From positions 1 through 37,466 of IMG/VR virus record IMGVR_UViG_3300024335_000022: DNA of 37,466 nt, one strand, 5' to 3'. How positions within the stretch are numbered: the first letter of the stretch is position 1; each line of letters opens with the position of its first letter. Source of the DNA: a virus. Shown here one piece after another: positions 1-25,160 of this stretch. Under the pieces are notes generated by a model, which did no database searches, was not told the origin of the DNA, and saw only the letters and a list, made by a program, of their open reading frames with translations. A program made the position numbers and the translations under genes.

Positions 1-3000
1 TCAAGTAAAGGTCCTTTAGCACCTTTCATAACTTTACTAAACTCTGAAAAATCCCACTCAGCACCTTGTGCCTCCATTTCACCAGCCTTTTTAGCGAACT
101 CAGTAGCTGTTAAAGATCCAGTTTTACCATCAGGCATTGTATACAACACATTGCTTTTAGTAGTAGCTAATGTATCATCAAAGTCAAATACTCTAATCTT
201 TTTAACTGGAGCATCAGCATTTCTAGCTATAGATAATGCTTTGTCTATATTACCTAAGTTGTTTAATATGTTTTGATTAGTGTTTTTGTTAGATACTTTA
301 GAGAACTTTAAACTGTTAGGTGCCTTGTTATTGTTTGTATTTTTTGTTTTTACGTAATCTCTATAATTTTCAAGTATATTTCTAACCATAATGCCTTCAG
401 CACTAAGTTTATTTCTACTAACACTACCTATTTTTTGAATTTGACTAGAGTTTAAGTTTTGAGCTATAAACTCAGCCATATTTATGCCAGTAAAATCTTT
501 ACCTATATCTAATTTATAAGTACCTATAGGTATTTGGTTAACAGCATCTTTACCTAAGAATGTTATAGGATCTACAAAATCTCTAACAGAAGCACCACTA
601 GCATCTTTTTGAACTCTCATTCTTTCTGATATTACCGCCTGCTGCAACTTATCAACGTTTTGCTTTACTGTTTTTCTTAAAACGCTTTCCGATATTTTAC
701 CATTAATAAACTTATTAAGTGTAATTAAAAAGTCCTTGTTAGCGTTAAAAAGTTCAATTAAATGCTCATTATGCATTAGCTTATTTTGGTTTTTAGTGTC
801 ACCTCTTTCAGGCTTCATACTAAAACTTGTCATAGGGACCATCCCTTTAAATAAACCGGTAGCTCTATTAACTTGAGACTCTAAAACATCAGCGACAAAC
901 CCTAAAGATTCCTTGCTTTTATTTTTGATAACAAAATTTACTAAAGATGAATAGCCTCTGTTTAAAAGTTCTCTATTTGATTTTATAGTTTCATCCACAG
1001 TGCTTCCTTCGGCTGATAATAGTTTTTCAACCTGTAATTTAGCTTCGCTAGGTGTAACACCCTCCTTTAGTACAATGTTTTCAACTTTTCTTCTGAAACC
1101 ACCCCAGTTTCTCGGAGCAAAGACAGCCCTACTATTACTGTAATCAGAACCAGTACCTACAATAACATCATCTCCAAAAACTTTTTTAAGTAAATTACTA
1201 TAACCTTTTACTCCATTAGTTACTTCTTTATAGGTCAAAGGTCTTCCACCTAAAGTTATTCTAGTATCTCCAAATCCTACAGAGTCAACAATAGCTTGCT
1301 GCACAGACTTAGGTAAATCGTCAAATGTTTTTCCTTTTGGTATTAGATCTTTAATAAAAAATTTATACGTAGATTTTAACTTCTCGGAGTTTTCAACTGA
1401 AGTTATATTTTTTTTACCACCCTCTTTTATATTAAGTAAACCTCTAAGTTTTTTATATTTAGATATATTATCGTTTATATTTAATAATACATCTCGAGGT
1501 TCTATACCTAATTCTTCTGATATTTTCTGTATTGCTAAAACTTCTTGAGCAACTTGTATATCACTTAATCCTTTAGTTAGTTTTTTAAACTCTTTTGCTT
1601 TACTAAACTTAGCACCAGCTTTAATATCTACTCTAGCCTTAGGCTCTGCTGTTTCAGCAGCTTTTTCTACTATTAAGTTTCTAAAAGACATTGCAGCTAG
1701 ACCCTTTATAGTTTGAGCTTCAGCAGCTCTGTAAACGCTACCATCTATTTTACCTAAAAGATCTTTGTAGTCTTGTACAGTTTTAGTAGGATCTTTCTCC
1801 CACTTACCTTTATCGTTTTTTCTATATAAAGCGTTTAGTATGTTGTTAGGTATAAATGTTGATTTACCCTCTATAGTACTAGGGCCAGCATAAGCATCTG
1901 GTAATAAAGAAAAATCTTTTGCAGCATTATTATCTAAGAACTGTCTTAAGTTTCTTAAACCATCAAGTTCTTTTTTCTGTATATTTCTAGTCTTCTTAGT
2001 AAATACCTCAGGGTTTAAACCAAAAGCTTTACCAAGAGTTTTAGCTAAATTAGTACCGATGTTTCTACTCTCACCAAAAGTTTTAATTGGTTTATCTTTA
2101 AGATCAGCTTCTATAGCTTTATCGATTGTATTAGCAACTTCTGAGCCACTAACTCCTAGGTTACTTGCTACAACACCAGTGTATGTTTTAAGCTTCTTAG
2201 GACTTATCTTTTTAACAGGTTTGTCTTTAGCCTCGACTACAACTTCTTCAGCTGCTACACCCTTAGCCTCTGTTACATCATCTGTAAACTTTTCACCTAA
2301 TACTCTTTTCGATGCTTCAATTGCTCTAGCAGGTAAGAATTTATTTATATAAGCAGCTAATGGCACTCCAGATTCTGGCTTATATTCTTTTATAAGATCA
2401 AATATACCACGTTTACCTGTTTCTATTTCGTCAGTTAATAACTGTTTATCAAAATTTGGAGCATCTCTTCTACGCTCTACTATTTTGTTTGTTATTGGTT
2501 TAAACTTTTCTAGTATATCAAAAGCACCGGCAACACCTTGTTCATCATATATTCTTTGTACCTCTTGAGAAGCTTCTTCAGATTTAGCCTCTTTTACTAT
2601 CGCTTCGTCAGTAGTTTTTACTTTTGGCGCAACTAGCTCACCCTCTACACCTTTAGTTACTGCTTTAGTCTGAGCTTTAGTTAGTTTACCTTTTTCTATG
2701 CTCTTGTTATAGTCTTTTATAAAATTATAAACATCTCTACCGTTATTAAATTTAATACCAGTAAGACCGGCTTTCTGCAACACTCTTCTTATAGTATCAC
2801 CTATTTTAGTAAATAAGTTTTCTTCAAAAACTAAATCACCAGTAGCAATAGCATCGGAAAATAAAGTTAATGTTTCTTCTCCAACTATAGCATCAGGATC
2901 TTGCTTGTATAGTTCTAAACGTTTCTTAAAGTCGCTATCTTTTATTTTACCAGCATCTATATTATTTAGTTCTAACTTGAGAGCATTACCTAAATTAACA

Positions 3001-4868
3001 GCTGTATCTGGACTATCTACTATAGTTTTAAATAAAACACCGTGTAAAAGCTCGTGAGCTGCTACATTTACAGCAAATTCTTTTTTAGCTATTTCTTCGT
3101 TTATAACTATAGTCTGCTCACCAGTCTTAGGATCTTGTAGTATATAACCTTGCTCTGTCGATGCTTTCTTCTGCAGGTCTTTATCTTTAGCTATTTTATC
3201 AGCTTGTTCTTGATCTTTTGCTATCTCTATATTTATAGACTCAATGCCTTTAACTATGTCAGTTACCTTCTCTGTAGTTATTTTTAATTTGTTCTCAGCA
3301 CTTATGTTTGACAACCTGGCATCTATTTCTTTTAACCTCTGATCTTGAGTCTCTACTAAGGATTTATTATCACCTGCTTTTGCTATTTCAGAAGCAACAT
3401 CTTGTCTTTCATTTAATAAATCTACAGTTTCTTTAAATAAGCTTTCTGTTATATTTAAATCATCAGCTATTTTGACATTTTTTTGAGTTATATTAAACTT
3501 TTGCTTAATAGAATTAGACTCTTCAGTACTAATATCTCCGTCAGATACTTTTTTTCTAAGCTCTATATCTAAAATATTACCACTGTATTTGTTTTTAGCT
3601 ATATTTATAGATTTATCGCTAGAAGGGTTTAATTCAAACTCATTTAAAACAGATTTAGAATTATTCTGCTCTAATGTCTTGTTTACAGAATTAACCTGAA
3701 CAGCTCTATTTATAGATCTACCAGCTACACCTAAGGCTCCAGTTCCAGACATACTACCACCAGTTGCTACACCTATAATAAAAATATCAGCAAGTTCTGG
3801 CCAAAAATTATCAAACTCATCTCCTTTATTGTAGTAAATAGCATCGATGTTTCTATTTAATACCTCAGTAGTTGCTTCGGAAAAACCTTCTTTTCCAGCT
3901 TCTTTAACAACTTGCAATGTAGCATCTTTTAAGGTTTTTTCTATAACATCTCTACTTTTTCCAATTAAATTTCTAAATAGACCTTTACCTATTCTTTTAG
4001 TAGCAATCTCCAATAAACCCTCTGAAAAACCTGTCAAAGTAGATGCCGCCATGTTAGCTGCATCTAGCTTTTTACCTTCAGCTAATGCTTCTGTAGAATA
4101 ATCAGCTGCTGAGCCGGCTACAATAGAAGATATACCTACGTAAGGTATCATTGCTTGAGCTATAGATGGTATTGTACCAACAACCTCGTTAAAAGTACGA
4201 GAAATAGCTTGAGAAAAGTCTAACTCTAAAAGGTCTTGTCCTATTGTAGTGTCGTATTGTGTAAGTGTTTTTTCTATTTTTTTAGCATCATTTTTTAGCT
4301 GATTTGCAGCTTCCAATCCTTTAACACCAGCTGAACCAATGTCGTTGGCACCTGAAAAAGCTCCTAAAGCTTGAGCTACCGCGTCTTGTGTTTTACTGTC
4401 TGATTCTTGAAACTTTTTTATATCTTCTTCAAAAGCAGATCCAGCTATACCAATAAGCGCGGTCATTTTTAATCTGTTGACAAAAGCTGGTATTTGCGCT
4501 ATGTTTGATCCAGCTCTAAAGGTGTTTGCTTTGAACTTCTTAATAGCCTCAGATTCTAGTATTTTATCTAGTACTGTTTCTTCTTCTTCAAGCTCCTTAG
4601 CTTCTGGTAATTCCGAAGAAGTATCTTCCGAAGGTAACTCCGTAACGCCCGCTTGTGATGCTGTCATTGGCTGCACTACATCCGCATCCGCTGCAGCGCT
4701 TATTGGAAAATCCTGTGTCTCGTCTTTAATTTCTTGCTCTACAACTACACCTTCTTCATCTAAAACGCCTATAAAAACAGCATTACTGAATTTATTTAAA
4801 AATTCTTGTTCTTTGGCATCAGATACATCATAAGGATTACCGTCAACTTCATATCTTTTTACTGGCAT
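1..4868 (-). CDS. Giant multidomain (polyvalent) virion/ejection protein, C-terminus cut by window edge
   Basis: An uninterrupted frame runs from an ATG at 4868 to the window edge, giving at least 1622 residues; the true C-terminus lies outside. The N-terminal ~100 residues are acidic, followed by helical segments and a hydrophobic stretch near residues 230-250. An HELLH zinc-peptidase motif lies at 605-609, with the two His and the Glu in place. Residues ~782-870 resemble sigma-70 region 2 (GIFDLIKEYKPESGVPLAAY at 821-840). Near the end VFDFDDTLA (about 1560-1567) is HAD-superfamily motif I, with the nucleophile Asp at 1562 and the acid Asp at 1564. Size, multidomain make-up and position after a gp13/14/15-like run suggest a T7 gp16-like ejected protein of the 'polyvalent protein' kind. 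The motifs are directly visible; ejection and enzymatic activity are inferred. It starts 13 bases after the stop of the 575-residue gene. Confidence 0.85.
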   Translation of the reverse strand, partial: MPVKRYEVDGNPYDVSDAKEQEFLNKFSNAVFIGVLDEEGVVVEQEIKDETQDFPISAAADADVVQPMTASQAGVTELPSEDTSSELPEAKELEEEETVLDKILESEAIKKFKANTFRAGSNIAQIPAFVNRLKMTALIGIAGSAFEEDIKKFQESDSKTQDAVAQALGAFSGANDIGSAGVKGLEAANQLKNDAKKIEKTLTQYDTTIGQDLLELDFSQAISRTFNEVVGTIPSIAQAMIPYVGISSIVAGSAADYSTEALAEGKKLDAANMAASTLTGFSEGLLEIATKRIGKGLFRNLIGKSRDVIEKTLKDATLQVVKEAGKEGFSEATTEVLNRNIDAIYYNKGDEFDNFWPELADIFIIGVATGGSMSGTGALGVAGRSINRAVQVNSVNKTLEQNNSKSVLNEFELNPSSDKSINIAKNKYSGNILDIELRKKVSDGDISTEESNSIKQKFNITQKNVKIADDLNITESLFKETVDLLNERQDVASEIAKAGDNKSLVETQDQRLKEIDARLSNISAENKLKITTEKVTDIVKGIESINIEIAKDQEQADKIAKDKDLQKKASTEQGYILQDPKTGEQTIVINEEIAKKEFAVNVAAHELLHGVLFKTIVDSPDTAVNLGNALKLELNNIDAGKIKDSDFKKRLELYKQDPDAIVGEETLTLFSDAIATGDLVFEENLFTKIGDTIRRVLQKAGLTGIKFNNGRDVYNFIKDYNKSIEKGKLTKAQTKAVTKGVEGELVAPKVKTTDEAIVKEAKSEEASQEVQRIYDEQGVAGAFDILEKFKPITNKIVERRRDAPNFDKQLLTDEIETGKRGIFDLIKEYKPESGVPLAAYINKFLPARAIEASKRVLGEKFTDDVTEAKGVAAEEVVVEAKDKPVKKISPKKLKTYTGVVASNLGVSGSEVANTIDKAIEADLKDKPIKTFGESRNIGTNLAKTLGKAFGLNPEVFTKKTRNIQKKELDGLRNLRQFLDNNAAKDFSLLPDAYAGPSTIEGKSTFIPNNILNALYRKNDKGKWEKDPTKTVQDYKDLLGKIDGSVYRAAEAQTIKGLAAMSFRNLIVEKAAETAEPKARVDIKAGAKFSKAKEFKKLTKGLSDIQVAQEVLAIQKISEELGIEPRDVLLNINDNISKYKKLRGLLNIKEGGKKNITSVENSEKLKSTYKFFIKDLIPKGKTFDDLPKSVQQAIVDSVGFGDTRITLGGRPLTYKEVTNGVKGYSNLLKKVFGDDVIVGTGSDYSNSRAVFAPRNWGGFRRKVENIVLKEGVTPSEAKLQVEKLLSAEGSTVDETIKSNRELLNRGYSSLVNFVIKNKSKESLGFVADVLESQVNRATGLFKGMVPMTSFSMKPERGDTKNQNKLMHNEHLIELFNANKDFLITLNKFINGKISESVLRKTVKQNVDKLQQAVISERMRVQKDASGASVRDFVDPITFLGKDAVNQIPIGTYKLDIGKDFTGINMAEFIAQNLNSSQIQKIGSVSRNKLSAEGIMVRNILENYRDYVKTKNTNNNKAPNSLKFSKVSNKNTNQNILNNLGNIDKALSIARNADAPVKKIRVFDFDDTLATTKSNVLYTMPDGKTGSLTATEFAKKAGEMEAQGAEWDFSEFSKVMKGAKGPLL

Positions 4869-7389: not shown

Positions 7390-7794
7390 TTATATTTTTT
7401 TTACTAATTCTTTAGAAGACTTGTCGTCTACATTCCAACCAAGCTCTTCGTGTATATTTATTAATGATTCATTTCTACCTATAGAGAACATGTACTTCAC
7501 ACCGTTACTTTTACAAACTTCTTCAGCTGCATTTATTAAAAGCGCTATAGCGTGTTTTCTGTCAGCTTCTTTGTAATCTGGATTAGATACAACCCATTCC
7601 AATAAAGCTCCCTTAGAGTTAGTGTAATATATGAAACCTGCCACAATAGGCACGTCTTTTTCAACCATCAAACCTCCCTTACCATTATCAGGTAAAAAAT
7701 CTCTAGGTGGACTTTGCCATTCAGGCCATTCATCCCACCAAGAACATAAGGTTTCCCAGTCGCTCTCTTTTAATTTTCTAATATTTAATTGCAT
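7390..7794 (-). CDS. GNAT-fold acetyltransferase-like protein (gp13-like position)
   Basis: A 134-residue protein with the GNAT layout: an N-terminal strand and helix (NIRKLKESDWETLCSWW), central strands (VPIVAGFIYYTNSKGALLEWVVSN split around 48-71), then helix 3 and a late strand plus helix (GVKYMFSIGRNESLINIHEELGW, 98-120). The acetyl-CoA pyrophosphate loop, normally R/QxxGxG/A, is here around DRKHAIALL (78-86) and lacks the glycines, so catalysis is doubtful. In T7-like phages the gene between tail tube and gp14 (gene 13, 138 codons) is about the same size, and I recall it being described as GNAT-like. A structural or scaffold role in virion assembly is therefore as likely as acetylation. 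It lies 13 bases after the 519-residue tail gene. Confidence 0.8.
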   Translation of the reverse strand: MQLNIRKLKESDWETLCSWWDEWPEWQSPPRDFLPDNGKGGLMVEKDVPIVAGFIYYTNSKGALLEWVVSNPDYKEADRKHAIALLINAAEEVCKSNGVKYMFSIGRNESLINIHEELGWNVDDKSSKELVKKI

Positions 7795-7807: not shown

Positions 7808-9367
7808 TTAGCTACTAACAACAAAAGTAGAGTTTACAGCAAAAAGCTCTTTAGCTCCACCAGGATTAGTACTATTATCGTTTTGTAAAGTTACAGTACA
7901 ATAGTAACCTTTTATACCTGTCATATCTTCTCCAAATATAACTTCTCCAGGCATTGTTTGACCTTCGCTGTTATTAACTAGATTAGCGTAGTATTTATTT
8001 TCTTTTCTAACAAAGCCAGCATATTCTTTATTATAAGGTGGATTGTTAGATGCGAAAGTACTAACGTAGTCTGGTCTATAAACAGGTTCGTTATACGTAG
8101 GACTTGATTGTATAGGGTTTATTATATACTCACCTTCATAATAACTATTTATTGGATTGGTAGTATCTCTTAAACTAGGTGGTAAAATCCATATAGGATT
8201 TCCGCCACTATCTAATTCAAAACTGTCAACACCAGTAACATCTGAAATATACTCTGAAACTTCCCAACCATTACTACCTTCGTAGTTTATAGTTTTGAAG
8301 ACTTTACTAGTACTTATATCTGGGTTTACTACAAAAGTAATTTTTGATTTATTAGATTCACTGTAAAATTCAGCTCTATCAACATTCGTGCTATTATGGA
8401 CATATAATTTATTCCATCCAGCACTATCATATCCACCTATGCTATACATTCTGTTTGCTAAGCTAAAAGTAAACCTAGGTTTAAATGTATAAAAAGAAGG
8501 CCAACCTAAAACAGCTTCATCAAATTGAAGTGTGGTATAGTCATAGTAACCAGGACCTGGTCTAGAATTTATAGGCGTGCTTGGCTGTAGCGATAGAGTA
8601 TACTGTTTAGTGTATATATCCCAACCACCTATTATTTTACCCGGTCCAAAACTAGATGAATCTACAATACTTAAATTGTCTCTAAACCAATCAATCATAC
8701 CATAGTTTGATATCTCAGTTATACCATCTCTAGATAACCTTAAAACAGCTCCTCTATTTTTATCTACAAAATATTTTCTATATCCATAAACAGCAAAGCT
8801 TTCTGGGTTAGTGCTTATTCCAAAGTTCCCAGCGTAAGGTATTATTTGTCCAATAACAAGGTTTAGTTGGTTTACAGATACTCCACCTCCTTCAGCTGTG
8901 TATATAGCATCTTTGTCTATAAGTGCTCTACTAACTTTCTTCTCTGATAATATAATTAAATTAGAGTCTTCAGCATGTAACTTTTGTATGCTACCATCAG
9001 CCGGATCAGTTGCTTTAGTTATTTCTTCACCTACAGAGAATTGATTTGTTTGATTTATACCTGTTCTAGAATTATATATACCAGAATATATCATAGCATT
9101 ACCTCTAATACTACCATTAGGTTCATCTTCAACTAAGTAAGCTTTAGCACCTAAAGAAGTAGAAGTATTATTATAACCACCTCTAATTCTAGACTCTTCA
9201 ATAGCCCAGTTAAGATCATTATCATCTTCTGGAACATTACCAGTTTGATACCAACCACCTATAGATTGAGGTATACCTCTAGAGCCAAACCATTTCATAT
9301 CGCTAGCTGAGTCTACACTTTTTCTTAAAGTGAATGAGTTATAGTATTTTACTTCTATTAGTGCCAT
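7808..9367 (-). CDS. Tail structural protein next to muzzle/nozzle gene
   Basis: A 519-residue protein beginning MALIEVKYYNSFTLRKSV. It is rich in aromatic, Ser/Thr/Asn and Gly residues in a beta-strand pattern, without signal peptide, membrane segment or catalytic motif. Stretches such as EESRIRGGYNNTSTSLGAKA (57-76), KKVSRALIDKDAIYTAEGGG and ESFAVYGYRKYFVDKNRGAV recur, as far as I recall, in tail-associated proteins of crAss-like and related marine podoviruses, often annotated as stabilisation or tail proteins. It follows the 1520-residue muzzle gene by 35 bases and precedes the ejection-protein block. It is probably a beta-propeller-like or beta-rich distal tail component; its exact place in the tail is not decidable from sequence alone. 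Confidence 0.7.
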   Translation of the reverse strand: MALIEVKYYNSFTLRKSVDSASDMKWFGSRGIPQSIGGWYQTGNVPEDDNDLNWAIEESRIRGGYNNTSTSLGAKAYLVEDEPNGSIRGNAMIYSGIYNSRTGINQTNQFSVGEEITKATDPADGSIQKLHAEDSNLIILSEKKVSRALIDKDAIYTAEGGGVSVNQLNLVIGQIIPYAGNFGISTNPESFAVYGYRKYFVDKNRGAVLRLSRDGITEISNYGMIDWFRDNLSIVDSSSFGPGKIIGGWDIYTKQYTLSLQPSTPINSRPGPGYYDYTTLQFDEAVLGWPSFYTFKPRFTFSLANRMYSIGGYDSAGWNKLYVHNSTNVDRAEFYSESNKSKITFVVNPDISTSKVFKTINYEGSNGWEVSEYISDVTGVDSFELDSGGNPIWILPPSLRDTTNPINSYYEGEYIINPIQSSPTYNEPVYRPDYVSTFASNNPPYNKEYAGFVRKENKYYANLVNNSEGQTMPGEVIFGEDMTGIKGYYCTVTLQNDNSTNPGGAKELFAVNSTFVVSS

Positions 9368-24344: not shown

Positions 24345-24610
24345 TTAGATCTCCCTTCTGCAAAACCTCTAAAAGGTTTTTCTTTAGCATTGTCAGTATC
24401 ATTTATCATACTTTTCTCTTCTTCTATACGTGTTAGTATTTCAAAAGCGTCAAATATTGCTAGCTTCTTTGTAGCTGCAGCGTTCTTTAATCTATCAGCA
24501 GTTATATCATCACCTGAATCTACTATAGGTTCTTTAGCTACTTTTATTAACTCCTCAACTGCTCTTTGCCCAGCTTGGATTATACTGAGCTTGGTTTTTT
24601 TCGTGCTCAT
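24341..24610 (-). CDS. Candidate small terminase subunit
   Basis: An 89-residue, largely helical, charged protein (LSIIQAGQRAVEELIKVAKE, residues 8-27; LKNAAATKKLAIFDAFEILT). The C-terminus is polar and ends at the terL start with a 4-base ATGA overlap, so translation of the two is probably coupled. Small size, helical DNA-binding-type N-terminus and position directly before terL make it the best candidate for the small terminase subunit that recognises packaging sites. It is shorter than typical TerS proteins, and I see no clear helix-turn-helix consensus. It overlaps the end of the upstream gene by 56 bases, so an alternative later start is possible but would lose the conserved-looking helix. 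Confidence 0.5.
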   Translation of the reverse strand: MSTKKTKLSIIQAGQRAVEELIKVAKEPIVDSGDDITADRLKNAAATKKLAIFDAFEILTRIEEEKSMINDTDNAKEKPFRGFAEGRSK

Positions 24611-25160
24611 ATTTAATTACAATATCTTTTGATTTCATACAATATAATAATTCATCGTTAACGACAAATTCGAATTCGCTGTTAGGTGTAAAGCCTATAA
24701 CATCTCCTTCGTTTATTTTAAGAGCTTCTAAGGAACTATTACCATACTTTAGTATTCCAATATGGTTTTTATCTTTCTTTAGCTCTAACTCATCCTTATT
24801 AAGTACAGGCGCTACAAAGCATCTATTATTAAAAGGTTTCCACGAGTTATCTTTGCCATACAAATATATTTGATCTAATTGACAAAAATATTTATTATCT
24901 TTAAAGTATTTACTACTATTTACCTCTTTACCTTTTTGGTTATAGTATCTTCTAAATACATTGTGGTGAATAATAACCTCATCACCTATTTTTATGGGGG
25001 TTTTGAAGGCTATTGGCACAGATATCACTCTAGCTTTATTATTTATAAACTTGTGACTTTCTATTTTAGAATTTAAAACTAATTTCTTATCACCTATTTT
25101 TAACTCGTTGTCGTATCTCTCTCCTATTGGCTCTACAATAAAGTCATATACACTTCTCAT
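24555..25160 (-). CDS. Tandem GroES-like (co-chaperonin-like) protein, unassigned role
   Basis: A 201-residue protein that reads like two GroES-type beta barrels in series. Barrel 1 (~1-110) has YDFIVEPIGERYD, KLVLNS, ARVISVP, IKIGDEVIIHH and YFCQLDQIYLY, which line up with GroES DRVLVKP, GGIVL, GEVLAVG, VKVGDxVIF and EEYLIMxExDILA. Barrel 2 (~111-193) repeats it more divergently (NRCFVAPV, HIGILKYG, INEGDVIGFT, LLYCMKSKDIVIKYE). The likeness is mine by eye and not searched. A similar reading frame is common in marine phages, as I recall, without a proven function. Located just before the terminase genes and about 9.7 kb from the phage groEL/groES, it could be a second co-chaperonin, a chaperonin adaptor or an unrelated beta-barrel structural protein. 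Its ATG overlaps the upstream stop by one base (TAATG). Confidence 0.65.
   Translation of the reverse strand: MRSVYDFIVEPIGERYDNELKIGDKKLVLNSKIESHKFINNKARVISVPIAFKTPIKIGDEVIIHHNVFRRYYNQKGKEVNSSKYFKDNKYFCQLDQIYLYGKDNSWKPFNNRCFVAPVLNKDELELKKDKNHIGILKYGNSSLEALKINEGDVIGFTPNSEFEFVVNDELLYCMKSKDIVIKYEHEKNQAQYNPSWAKSS

Follow-up and report, generated by a model that had tools for sequence, protein, structure and literature searches.

What would a phage gain from a protein of at least 1622 residues that joins motifs of unrelated enzymes in one chain and is encoded where ejection proteins usually lie? The question is raised by a 37,466-nucleotide stretch of virus DNA (IMG/VR virus record IMGVR_UViG_3300024335_000022, positions 1 to 37,466; hereafter referred to as the window), one end of which is taken up by the 5′ part of a very large gene, whose product we call the giant protein. 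The continuous frame of at least 1622 residues leaving the window, which had been described from the letters of the DNA, was confirmed as an open reading frame (ORF) on the minus strand (Table 1). The best explanation of our results as a whole, to which we give a probability of about one half, is an ejected polyvalent protein whose module resembling region 2 of sigma-70 (sigma2) primes the host RNA polymerase for phage promoters. The broader proposition, ejection of the giant as a polyvalent protein, is very likely to be correct.

A scan of viral contigs yielded 91 stretches encoding a relative of the giant, from which 78 loci, and hence 78 giant proteins, were retained (L numbers denote loci and their giant proteins, G numbers marine records). 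These proteins and the window's own, minus 10 redundant giants, gave the 69 aligned members, 55 of them complete with lengths of 2056–3593 residues. The C-terminal part that the window lacks could be followed in two of the loci: L003, whose record is G001, is 100% identical to the window protein across all 1622 residues and continues to residue 1890, where its contig ends, and L001, 91% identical in its best segment, is complete at 2353 residues. In L001 numbering, the most conserved blocks are a zincin block (about 560–750), a HAD block (1505–1675) and a C-terminal block (1680–2325), and the conservation of the sigma-like block (760–870) is somewhat below theirs. The C-terminal region is long, helical and conserved, as judged by sequence or model, and gave no convincing fold match when modelled together with other parts. 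When the window protein was the only query, sequence searches of Pfam, PHROGs and the PDB returned nothing usable. The profiles below come from subsets of the aligned proteins: A3 (57 of 64 rows of suitable length, omitting L005, L031, L034, L039, L056, L070 and L078), A4 (38 of 45, omitting L021 and six rows in which the HAD motif is absent), A5 (24 of 52 sigma-like segments, chosen as similar-looking, the 28 more divergent ones forming A8), A6 (37 of 41, picked to contain the HAD domain and omitting L021, which is without the motif, L014, L048 and L070) and A7 (48 of 69).

Profiles and a structural model agree on the identity of the sigma-like block. The A5 profile had 23 PDB matches at E ≤ 10, of which 21 were sigma chains (best E 0.0028), with repeats of one protein among them, so that they do not count as 21 independent matches; with the larger A3 profile all five matches were sigma factors (best E 0.02). 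An adjacent block of the giant, used in the same way, had none among its seven matches. In an AlphaFold2 model of residues 540–889 (mean predicted local distance difference test score, pLDDT, 82.5), VIA-align matched model residues 221–320, which are residues 760–859 of the protein, to region 2 of sigma factors (the best alignment has Z 9.2 and root-mean-square deviation (rmsd) 2.7 Å over 90 residues), and all 50 rows shown read as sigma chains from their titles and chain letters. The block also aligned by hhalign in the expected register with the phages' own sigma factors, described below (P 0.0067; 12 controls, 0.059–0.76), and the giant of G020 itself has a weak Pfam Sigma70_r2 match (E 0.007). 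A sigma-70 region 2-like segment had thus been rightly recognized in the original prediction, and its position is better described as 760–859 than as about 782–870. We consider the domain probably a true sigma2 homologue. Among viral models, a structural protein of Cellulophaga phage phi17:2 was also listed for the zincin–sigma2 model (E 0.65).

The other two motifs that had been noted were found at exactly the residues given for them, HELLH at 605–609 and DFDDT at 1562–1566. HExxH is kept in 68 of the 69 non-redundant members, the sole miss being L005 (EELFH), and all 69 have a pair of glutamates about 55 residues downstream of it. This downstream pair behaves as a gluzincin ligand should. 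One of the six patterns used in the search (YNFIKDYN) falls in the zincin block, whose presence is therefore partly selected; HExxH was not a pattern. Foldseek with the model of residues 540–889 listed a single zincin, a weak match at rank 15 (E 0.67), and the VIA list, which one domain had filled with rows covering the sigma part only, contained none. We assign a likely zincin fold because the ligands are conserved, the fold match being weak. The giant of L005/L022 is the only member in which HExxH is degenerate (EELFH), despite 71% identity of its best segment to the window protein. The giant of L034 has, at about residues 830–900 after the zincin, a P-loop (GGPGAGKT) insert that looks kinase-like by eye.

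DFDDT opens a HAD phosphatase domain. Of the 69 members, 45 have D-F-D-[DE]-T; among the other 24, several come from contigs that are cut short, and the rest are complete yet lack the motif. Within A6, D-F-D-x-T, L-T-A-R, K and D-D are all invariant, and HAD motifs I–IV are all present in L003, which continues the window's own sequence. Pfam DUF2608 matched 34 of the 37 A6 rows at E ≤ 1 (first member, 26.4 bits; cut-off, 22.6). The model of this domain (mean pLDDT 76.1) has a Rossmann-like HAD fold, and its best structural neighbour is the T4 Pnkp 3′-phosphatase (5uj0_B; Z 12.2, rmsd 2.3 Å, 126 aligned). The PDB profile search gave only two matches at E ≤ 10, both PNKP with insignificant E values (1.6 and 1.8). 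Motifs and model together make a PNKP-type HAD phosphatase highly probable. The likeness to T4 polynucleotide kinase 3′-phosphatase lies in the fold of this domain; the T4 enzyme also has a kinase half, and none was recognized in the window protein. The L034 giant with the P-loop insert also carries the PNKP-type HAD motif. Of the three folds originally proposed, the HAD and sigma2-like ones hold and the zincin stands by its ligands; the case named beforehand as refuting, in which none of the three would appear, did not arise. Several unrelated enzymatic or binding domains are joined in one chain, and a zincin with HExxH and a downstream glutamate is among them, both features by which polyvalent proteins are recognized.

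The place of the gene points to the virion. We compared the window with five reference phages, the cultured phi18:3, phi38:1, elemo and Panino and the metagenomic ctfjg026, and found in all six the same row of genes for a GNAT-like, a gp14-like, a gp15-like and, last, a giant protein. The hidden Markov model (HMM) of the GNAT-like protein matched all five references (E 1.7e-14 to 2.6e-37), and that of the gp14-like protein (60 members) matched four: phi38:1 gp99 (9.7e-11), Panino, elemo and phi18:3 gp120 (3.6e-6), with ctfjg026 unmatched. The gp15-like protein had no sequence match in the five (best E 0.16) and was assigned by position. A gp15-sized ORF lies directly upstream of the giant in 67 of 68 loci, preceded by a gp14-like ORF in 59. 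The giant itself is related to those of the references through its N-terminal segment, which is 33.7% identical to the Panino protein over 309 residues (E 1.7e-29); the block HMM matched Panino (1.9e-16), elemo (1.1e-15), phi38:1 (8.8e-13) and phi18:3 gp123 (3.9e-11), and ctfjg026 weakly (domain E 0.00045). According to their GenBank annotation, phi18:3 gp120, gp121 and gp123 are virion proteins identified by tandem mass spectrometry (MS/MS), and elemo gp18, a protein of 3694 aa, bears a structural annotation. The proposed ejection-protein slot is supported by synteny and by the annotation of gp123, to which the giant is homologous in its N-terminal part only, and it is likely, by analogy with this homologue, that the window protein travels in the virion and is ejected along with the DNA. 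The comparison with T7 gp16 stands for the slot after the gp14-like and gp15-like genes and lacks support for kinship: neither homology to gp16 nor an N-terminal transglycosylase was found in Pfam and PDB sequence searches. The proteins phi18:3 gp123, phi38:1 gp101, elemo gp18 and Panino gp69 share the slot and the homologous N-terminal segment. Sigma2 and HAD profiles had no convincing match in any of the five reference phages, and the zincin profile matched only elemo (1.1e-9) and ctfjg026 (2.6e-6), elemo being the only one of the four cultured phages so matched. The elemo protein (L082 2852-13936) contains AHEIFHA and a DUF3293 domain (Pfam E 1e-12).

The relatives also point to a host group. 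The terminase matched 87 phage records and the portal likewise 87. In each case 86 belong to phages that infect Flavobacterium, Cellulophaga, Tenacibaculum or Maribacter, and the remaining record, the closest of all, is the metagenomic genome ctfjg026. Shine-Dalgarno sites precede 1 of 25 window genes (shuffled mean 1.1), and in this absence of an excess the window phage resembles those phages. Lack of such sites is given as a Bacteroidota trait in passages of a published study (PMC6847099). Genome bins contained 22 of the loci; the label is Bacteroidota for 8, three of which share a bin, and for the other 14 it names various groups unrelated to one another. Because of the terminase and portal matches and the lack of a Shine-Dalgarno excess, a member of the Bacteroidota is most likely the host.

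Many of the marine records use TGGATAATATA-type promoters. The word TGGATAAT occurs 15 times upstream of genes in five records (0.6 expected), and its sites form one element, TTACAAACaAAATAcgAt-N7-TGGATAATAta, which in G001 precedes a cluster of small genes at a strand switch, outside the window (40.9-46.6 kb); the same family, TTACAAAC...TGGATAATATA, was found in L128, L131, L135, L159, L160, L165, L167-L168 and L172. In the window itself TGGATAATA is at chance level only. A position weight matrix (PWM) was built from 21 sites of four records and applied to 11 held-out marine records. It found sites in six of them (7, 7, 7, 5, 5 and 1; null 0–0.2), and none in G009, G014, G017, G018 and G019 or in the five reference phages. 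Words of the GATAATAT type are enriched in G014, G017, G018 and G020, and ACGGACTTA also in G017 and G018. Over-representation of GATAATA, with a count reached by no more than 1 of 60 shuffles, was seen in 12 of 15 marine records (all but G009, G011 and G013) and in none of the five reference phages. The host-type word TAnnTTTG is over-represented in each of the five reference phages, ctfjg026 having just 2 sites, and in a single one of the 15 marine records, G013. The consensus of the Bacteroidota primary sigma factor is TTTG/TAnnTTTG, according to parts of the same source (PMC6847099). The PWM and word tests covered about 53 of 77 kb of Panino and about 46 of 61 kb of ctfjg026, and all but a few kb of several marine records; the host-type promoters were counted by a strand-aware test against the reference phages, which replaced an uninformative both-strand intergenic scan.

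A separate phage gene for a sigma factor accompanies these promoters. Pfam Sigma70_r2 matched at E ≤ 1 in 15 of 20 marine records, 11 of them above the cut-off and that of G014 weakly (E 0.027); the genes are separate from the giant and encode 233–261 residues, with one cut by a contig end, and none of six reference phage records has such a match. That of G001 occupies 49.3-50.1 kb, with ligase, recombination and primase genes around it. T7-type RNA polymerase (PF00940) matched in none of the 20 marine records, a search in which the controls also gave none and which did not extend to multisubunit or crAss-type polymerases. The sigma2 domain of the giant, the separate sigma gene and the non-host promoters tend to co-occur, a pattern that fits either sigma as the reader.

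Between the sigma-like and HAD domains the giant contains a swapped cassette. In steps of 50 residues, the identity of the window protein (as L003) to L001 is 0.74-1.00 up to residue 1100, 0.14-0.26 at 1101-1500, 0.52 at 1501-1550 and 0.88-1.00 at 1551-1850; against L002, this cassette is 0.98-1.00 identical and residues 101-600 only 0.14-0.46. A K-F-S tripeptide stands at each border of the cassette. In 68 proteins [KR]FS occurs 135 times (64 expected), other orders of the three residues 52–76 times, except for FS[KR] (168, overlapping KFSK). An excess as such is not unique to it ([DE]FS, 129 versus 65 expected; [KR]FN, 121 versus 70). Its placement sets it apart: with block edges fixed beforehand, 60 of the 135 lie within 15 columns of an edge, as compared with 6% of all residues and 2–12% of seven control motifs, and with 0 of 129 [DE]FS and 2 of 121 [KR]FN. 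The sites are largely homologous, and counted as distinct places the figures are 10 of 50 for [KR]FS, 0 of 48 for [DE]FS, 2 of 45 for [KR]FN, 3 of 37 for [KR]FT and 4 of 43 for [KR]SF. Eighteen of 61 proteins longer than 2000 residues are without any [KR]FS[KLSMRT]. The codons AAG-TTT-AGT are over-used (25 of 86 [VILA][KR]FS sites; AAG makes up 0.53 of the lysines versus a background of 0.17). An origin of the tags at the DNA level is disfavoured by their serines, for which both TCN and AGY codons are used, and by AAGTTTAGT, which occurs in the giant genes 32 times in frame and twice out of frame. We read the tags, from these sequence patterns, as a peptide-level signal with some shared ancestry. 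One reading is that they are cutting sites of the zincin; autoprocessing has been proposed for polyvalent proteins in passages of Iyer et al. (PMC5512222). That the zincin cuts its own chain is a possibility we put forward tentatively.

Table 1. Features of the giant protein gene, its neighbours and the associated sigma gene and promoters (window positions unless a locus or record is named)
Feature	Position	Strand	Basis
Giant protein ORF	3..4868	(-)	ATG start, 1622 codons, 3′ end beyond window
N-terminal segment (aa 75-375) common to giants of cultured phages	3744..4646	(-)	sequence and block HMM
Likely zincin-like metallopeptidase module (aa 540-744)	2637..3251	(-)	HExxH 68/69, EE 69/69; model
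HELLH motif (aa 605-609)	3042..3056	(-)	sequence
Sigma-70 region 2-like domain (aa 760-859)	2292..2591	(-)	profiles, model, fold comparison
K-F-S tag, N-side border of cassette (aa 1087-1089)	1602..1610	(-)	sequence
Swapped cassette (aa 1090-1520)	309..1601	(-)	identity per 50 residues vs L001, L002
K-F-S tag, C-side border of cassette (aa 1521-1523)	300..308	(-)	sequence
Start of predicted HAD phosphatase domain (DFDDT at 171-185)	3..206	(-)	motifs; remainder outside window
gp15-like protein, 575 aa	4882..6609	(-)	position; weak Pfam T7_gp14 match, E 0.0079
gp14-like protein, 257 aa	6613..7386	(-)	HMM matches in reference phages
GNAT-like protein, 134 aa, gp13 position	7390..7794	(-)	Pfam Acetyltransf_1, E 0.01
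Promoter family TTACAAAC...TGGATAATATA, before small genes	L126 866-6568 = G001 40.9-46.6 kb	(+)	
Separate sigma factor gene, 259 aa	L126 9336-10115	(+)	PHROG sigma family, E 1.5e-19

Elsewhere in the window, a 519-residue protein (7808-9367, minus strand) contains the C-terminal domain of the crassvirus muzzle protein (Pfam E 7.5e-11), which connects this phage through its tail with the crAss-like phages. The minus strand also encodes a phage GroEL (35108-36661; Pfam E 4.1e-58) and a GroES-like protein (24555-25160; PHROG E 7.1e-24). ARAGORN found no tRNA gene in the window.

Combining these observations, we propose the following course of events. The N- and C-terminal parts of the giant would serve packaging and passage through the envelope. 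Inside the cell the domains would be set free by the zincin, which would cut the chain, perhaps at the K-F-S tags that separate modules. The sigma2 domain would dock on the host RNA polymerase, allowing phage -10 elements of the GATAATATA type to be melted, elements that the host primary sigma, with its TAnnTTTG preference, should not read. In this way transcription of early genes, and of the gene for the separate phage sigma, would begin before any phage sigma exists, and the HAD domain would take 3′ phosphates off DNA or RNA ends. Our reason for favouring priming by sigma2 is that host-type promoters, from which a first round of transcription could start, are not over-represented in 14 of 15 marine records. 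The parts of this scheme do not stand equally firm. Action of the sigma2 domain on host RNA polymerase during infection, taken alone, has in our estimate somewhat less than an even chance, and the complete version, in which virion-delivered sigma2 starts a Bacteroidota polymerase at phage-only GATAATATA promoters before any phage gene is expressed and zincin cutting at K-F-S frees sigma2 and the cassette, is rather unlikely to hold. Several observations weigh against the proposal, and they are given here and with the alternatives that they bear on. A strict link between zincin and tags is disfavoured by L005, which has K-F-S tags and a degenerate zincin, and by elemo gp18, which has HExxH but no K-F-S.

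The strongest competitor accepts ejection of the giant but leaves promoter reading to the separate sigma of about 250 residues alone, made after entry, with the sigma2-like domain doing another job, such as occupying the host polymerase and shutting off host transcription. A sigma gene apart from the giant in 15 of 20 marine records is what this explanation expects; that sigma covaries with the promoters equally well and is the simpler reader, and the two-part form of the promoters suits a sigma with region 4. A search of 19 full-length giants for Sigma70_r4, the -35-reading helix-turn-helix, gave none at E ≤ 0.1, and for this reason we speak of a sigma2-like domain rather than of a sigma factor and regard promoter choice by the giant alone as doubtful. 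The correspondence between sigma2 and promoters is also imperfect, as G009 has a clear sigma2 but no promoters of the PWM type, and in G013 a sigma2-like stretch is accompanied by promoters of the host type. What the separate sigma leaves unexplained is the first transcripts, which would need an unseen host-type start, and TAnnTTTG is not enriched upstream of genes in 14 of 15 marine records, although a few host-type sites could still suffice. We hold this explanation to be a substantial possibility, short of an even one. G013 was considered as a natural sigma2 knock-out, an argument dropped because L031 holds a sigma2-like stretch at about residues 1590–1660 (by eye, 5.2 bits).

Alternatively, the sigma-like stretch could be a generic helical domain for packing or membrane passage, its likeness to sigma a product of chance or convergence. 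Several of our searches lean this way. None of the 24 single A5 segments matched Pfam Sigma70_r2, and 6 matched DUF2963 instead; the segment is strongly diverged in distant relatives, and in A8 Sigma70_r2 matched 4 of 28 segments (best E 0.053), being there the commonest but not the best-scoring family, with the A8 profile favouring SPT6 (E 0.0069) over sigma (E 0.1). Foldseek found no PDB match to the zincin–sigma2 model at E 0.001, and the Z score of the VIA alignment is under the level of about 13 below which, the tool cautions, helical folds may share a common arrangement. Two tryptophans of sigma70 region 2, which we take to be its DNA-melting residues, are not kept in the profile alignment, and a structural protein of Tenacibaculum phage Gundel_1, a phage without a Sigma70_r2 match, resembles the zincin–sigma2 model (BFVD rank 2, E 0.01). 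However, profiles and fold agree on sigma factors, the neighbouring block gives none, and the alignment to the phages' own sigma stands apart from its 12 controls. We therefore consider a generic helical domain unlikely.

The GATAAT box could, for its part, be a host promoter if the host uses an ordinary sigma70, and the GATAATATA promoters would then be read by a host outside the Bacteroidota with no need for a phage sigma. The -10 part is indeed near TATAAT and 14 of the 22 binned loci bear non-Bacteroidota labels, but the terminase and portal match Flavobacteriia phages, the window shows no Shine-Dalgarno excess, and the upstream promoter part is not TTGACA-like and varies between groups, all of which makes this explanation improbable. 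Finally, we infer ejection from the annotation of phi18:3 gp123, which zincin, sigma2 and HAD profiles do not match, and the giant might be an unpackaged, intracellular late protein merely adjoining ejection genes, given that the reference phages' giants share only the N-terminal part (two also the zincin) and that the MS/MS annotation is of phi18:3 proteins; the nearly constant order of gp14-like, gp15-sized and giant genes and the virion or structural annotation of phi18:3 gp120, gp121 and gp123 and of elemo gp18 render this very improbable.

Delivery of a transcription apparatus with the genome has precedents. In the crAss-like phage phi14:2, a podovirus of marine Flavobacteriia, gp66 is a giant virion polymerase that starts transcription; gp66 has a polymerase, and the window giant has a sigma-like domain instead. 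The N4 virion RNA polymerase gp50, in the parts of its description that we cite (PMC12633501), is likewise a giant ejected protein with an HExxH domain and a large helical C-terminal region, and it starts transcription on entry, the same job as that proposed here; N4 gp50 carries its own polymerase, whereas in the window giant only a sigma2-like domain and no polymerase domain was recognized. The polyvalent proteins, in the passages of Iyer et al. (2017; PMC5512222) that describe them, resemble the giant as very large phage proteins with unrelated domains, a zincin and an expected entry with the DNA. The word sigma does not occur in a search of that text and no HAD domain in the passages found, and the giant has a sigma2-like and a PNKP-type HAD domain. 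What is new relative to the known polyvalent proteins is these two domains, the swapped cassette bounded by K-F-S and the context of sigma gene and promoters. Phages that inject a whole RNA polymerase are known, and none reported to inject a sigma domain came up among the papers listed by a literature search limited to open-licence texts.

If the giant is ejected, several activities would reach the host before any phage gene is expressed, as the original prediction had reasoned. If the sigma piece works as proposed, the virus brings along a part of the switch that turns on its own genes, a third way to start phage transcription beside host promoters and packaged polymerases, and one that would get transcription under way where N4 and the crAss-like phages rely on a polymerase carried in the virion. 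The K-F-S tags provide concrete candidate cut sites for the autoprocessing of polyvalent proteins, and the promoter class makes the idea of sigma delivery testable by transcript mapping. The marine phage group concerned is represented by 91 viral-contig stretches encoding a relative in a single scan.

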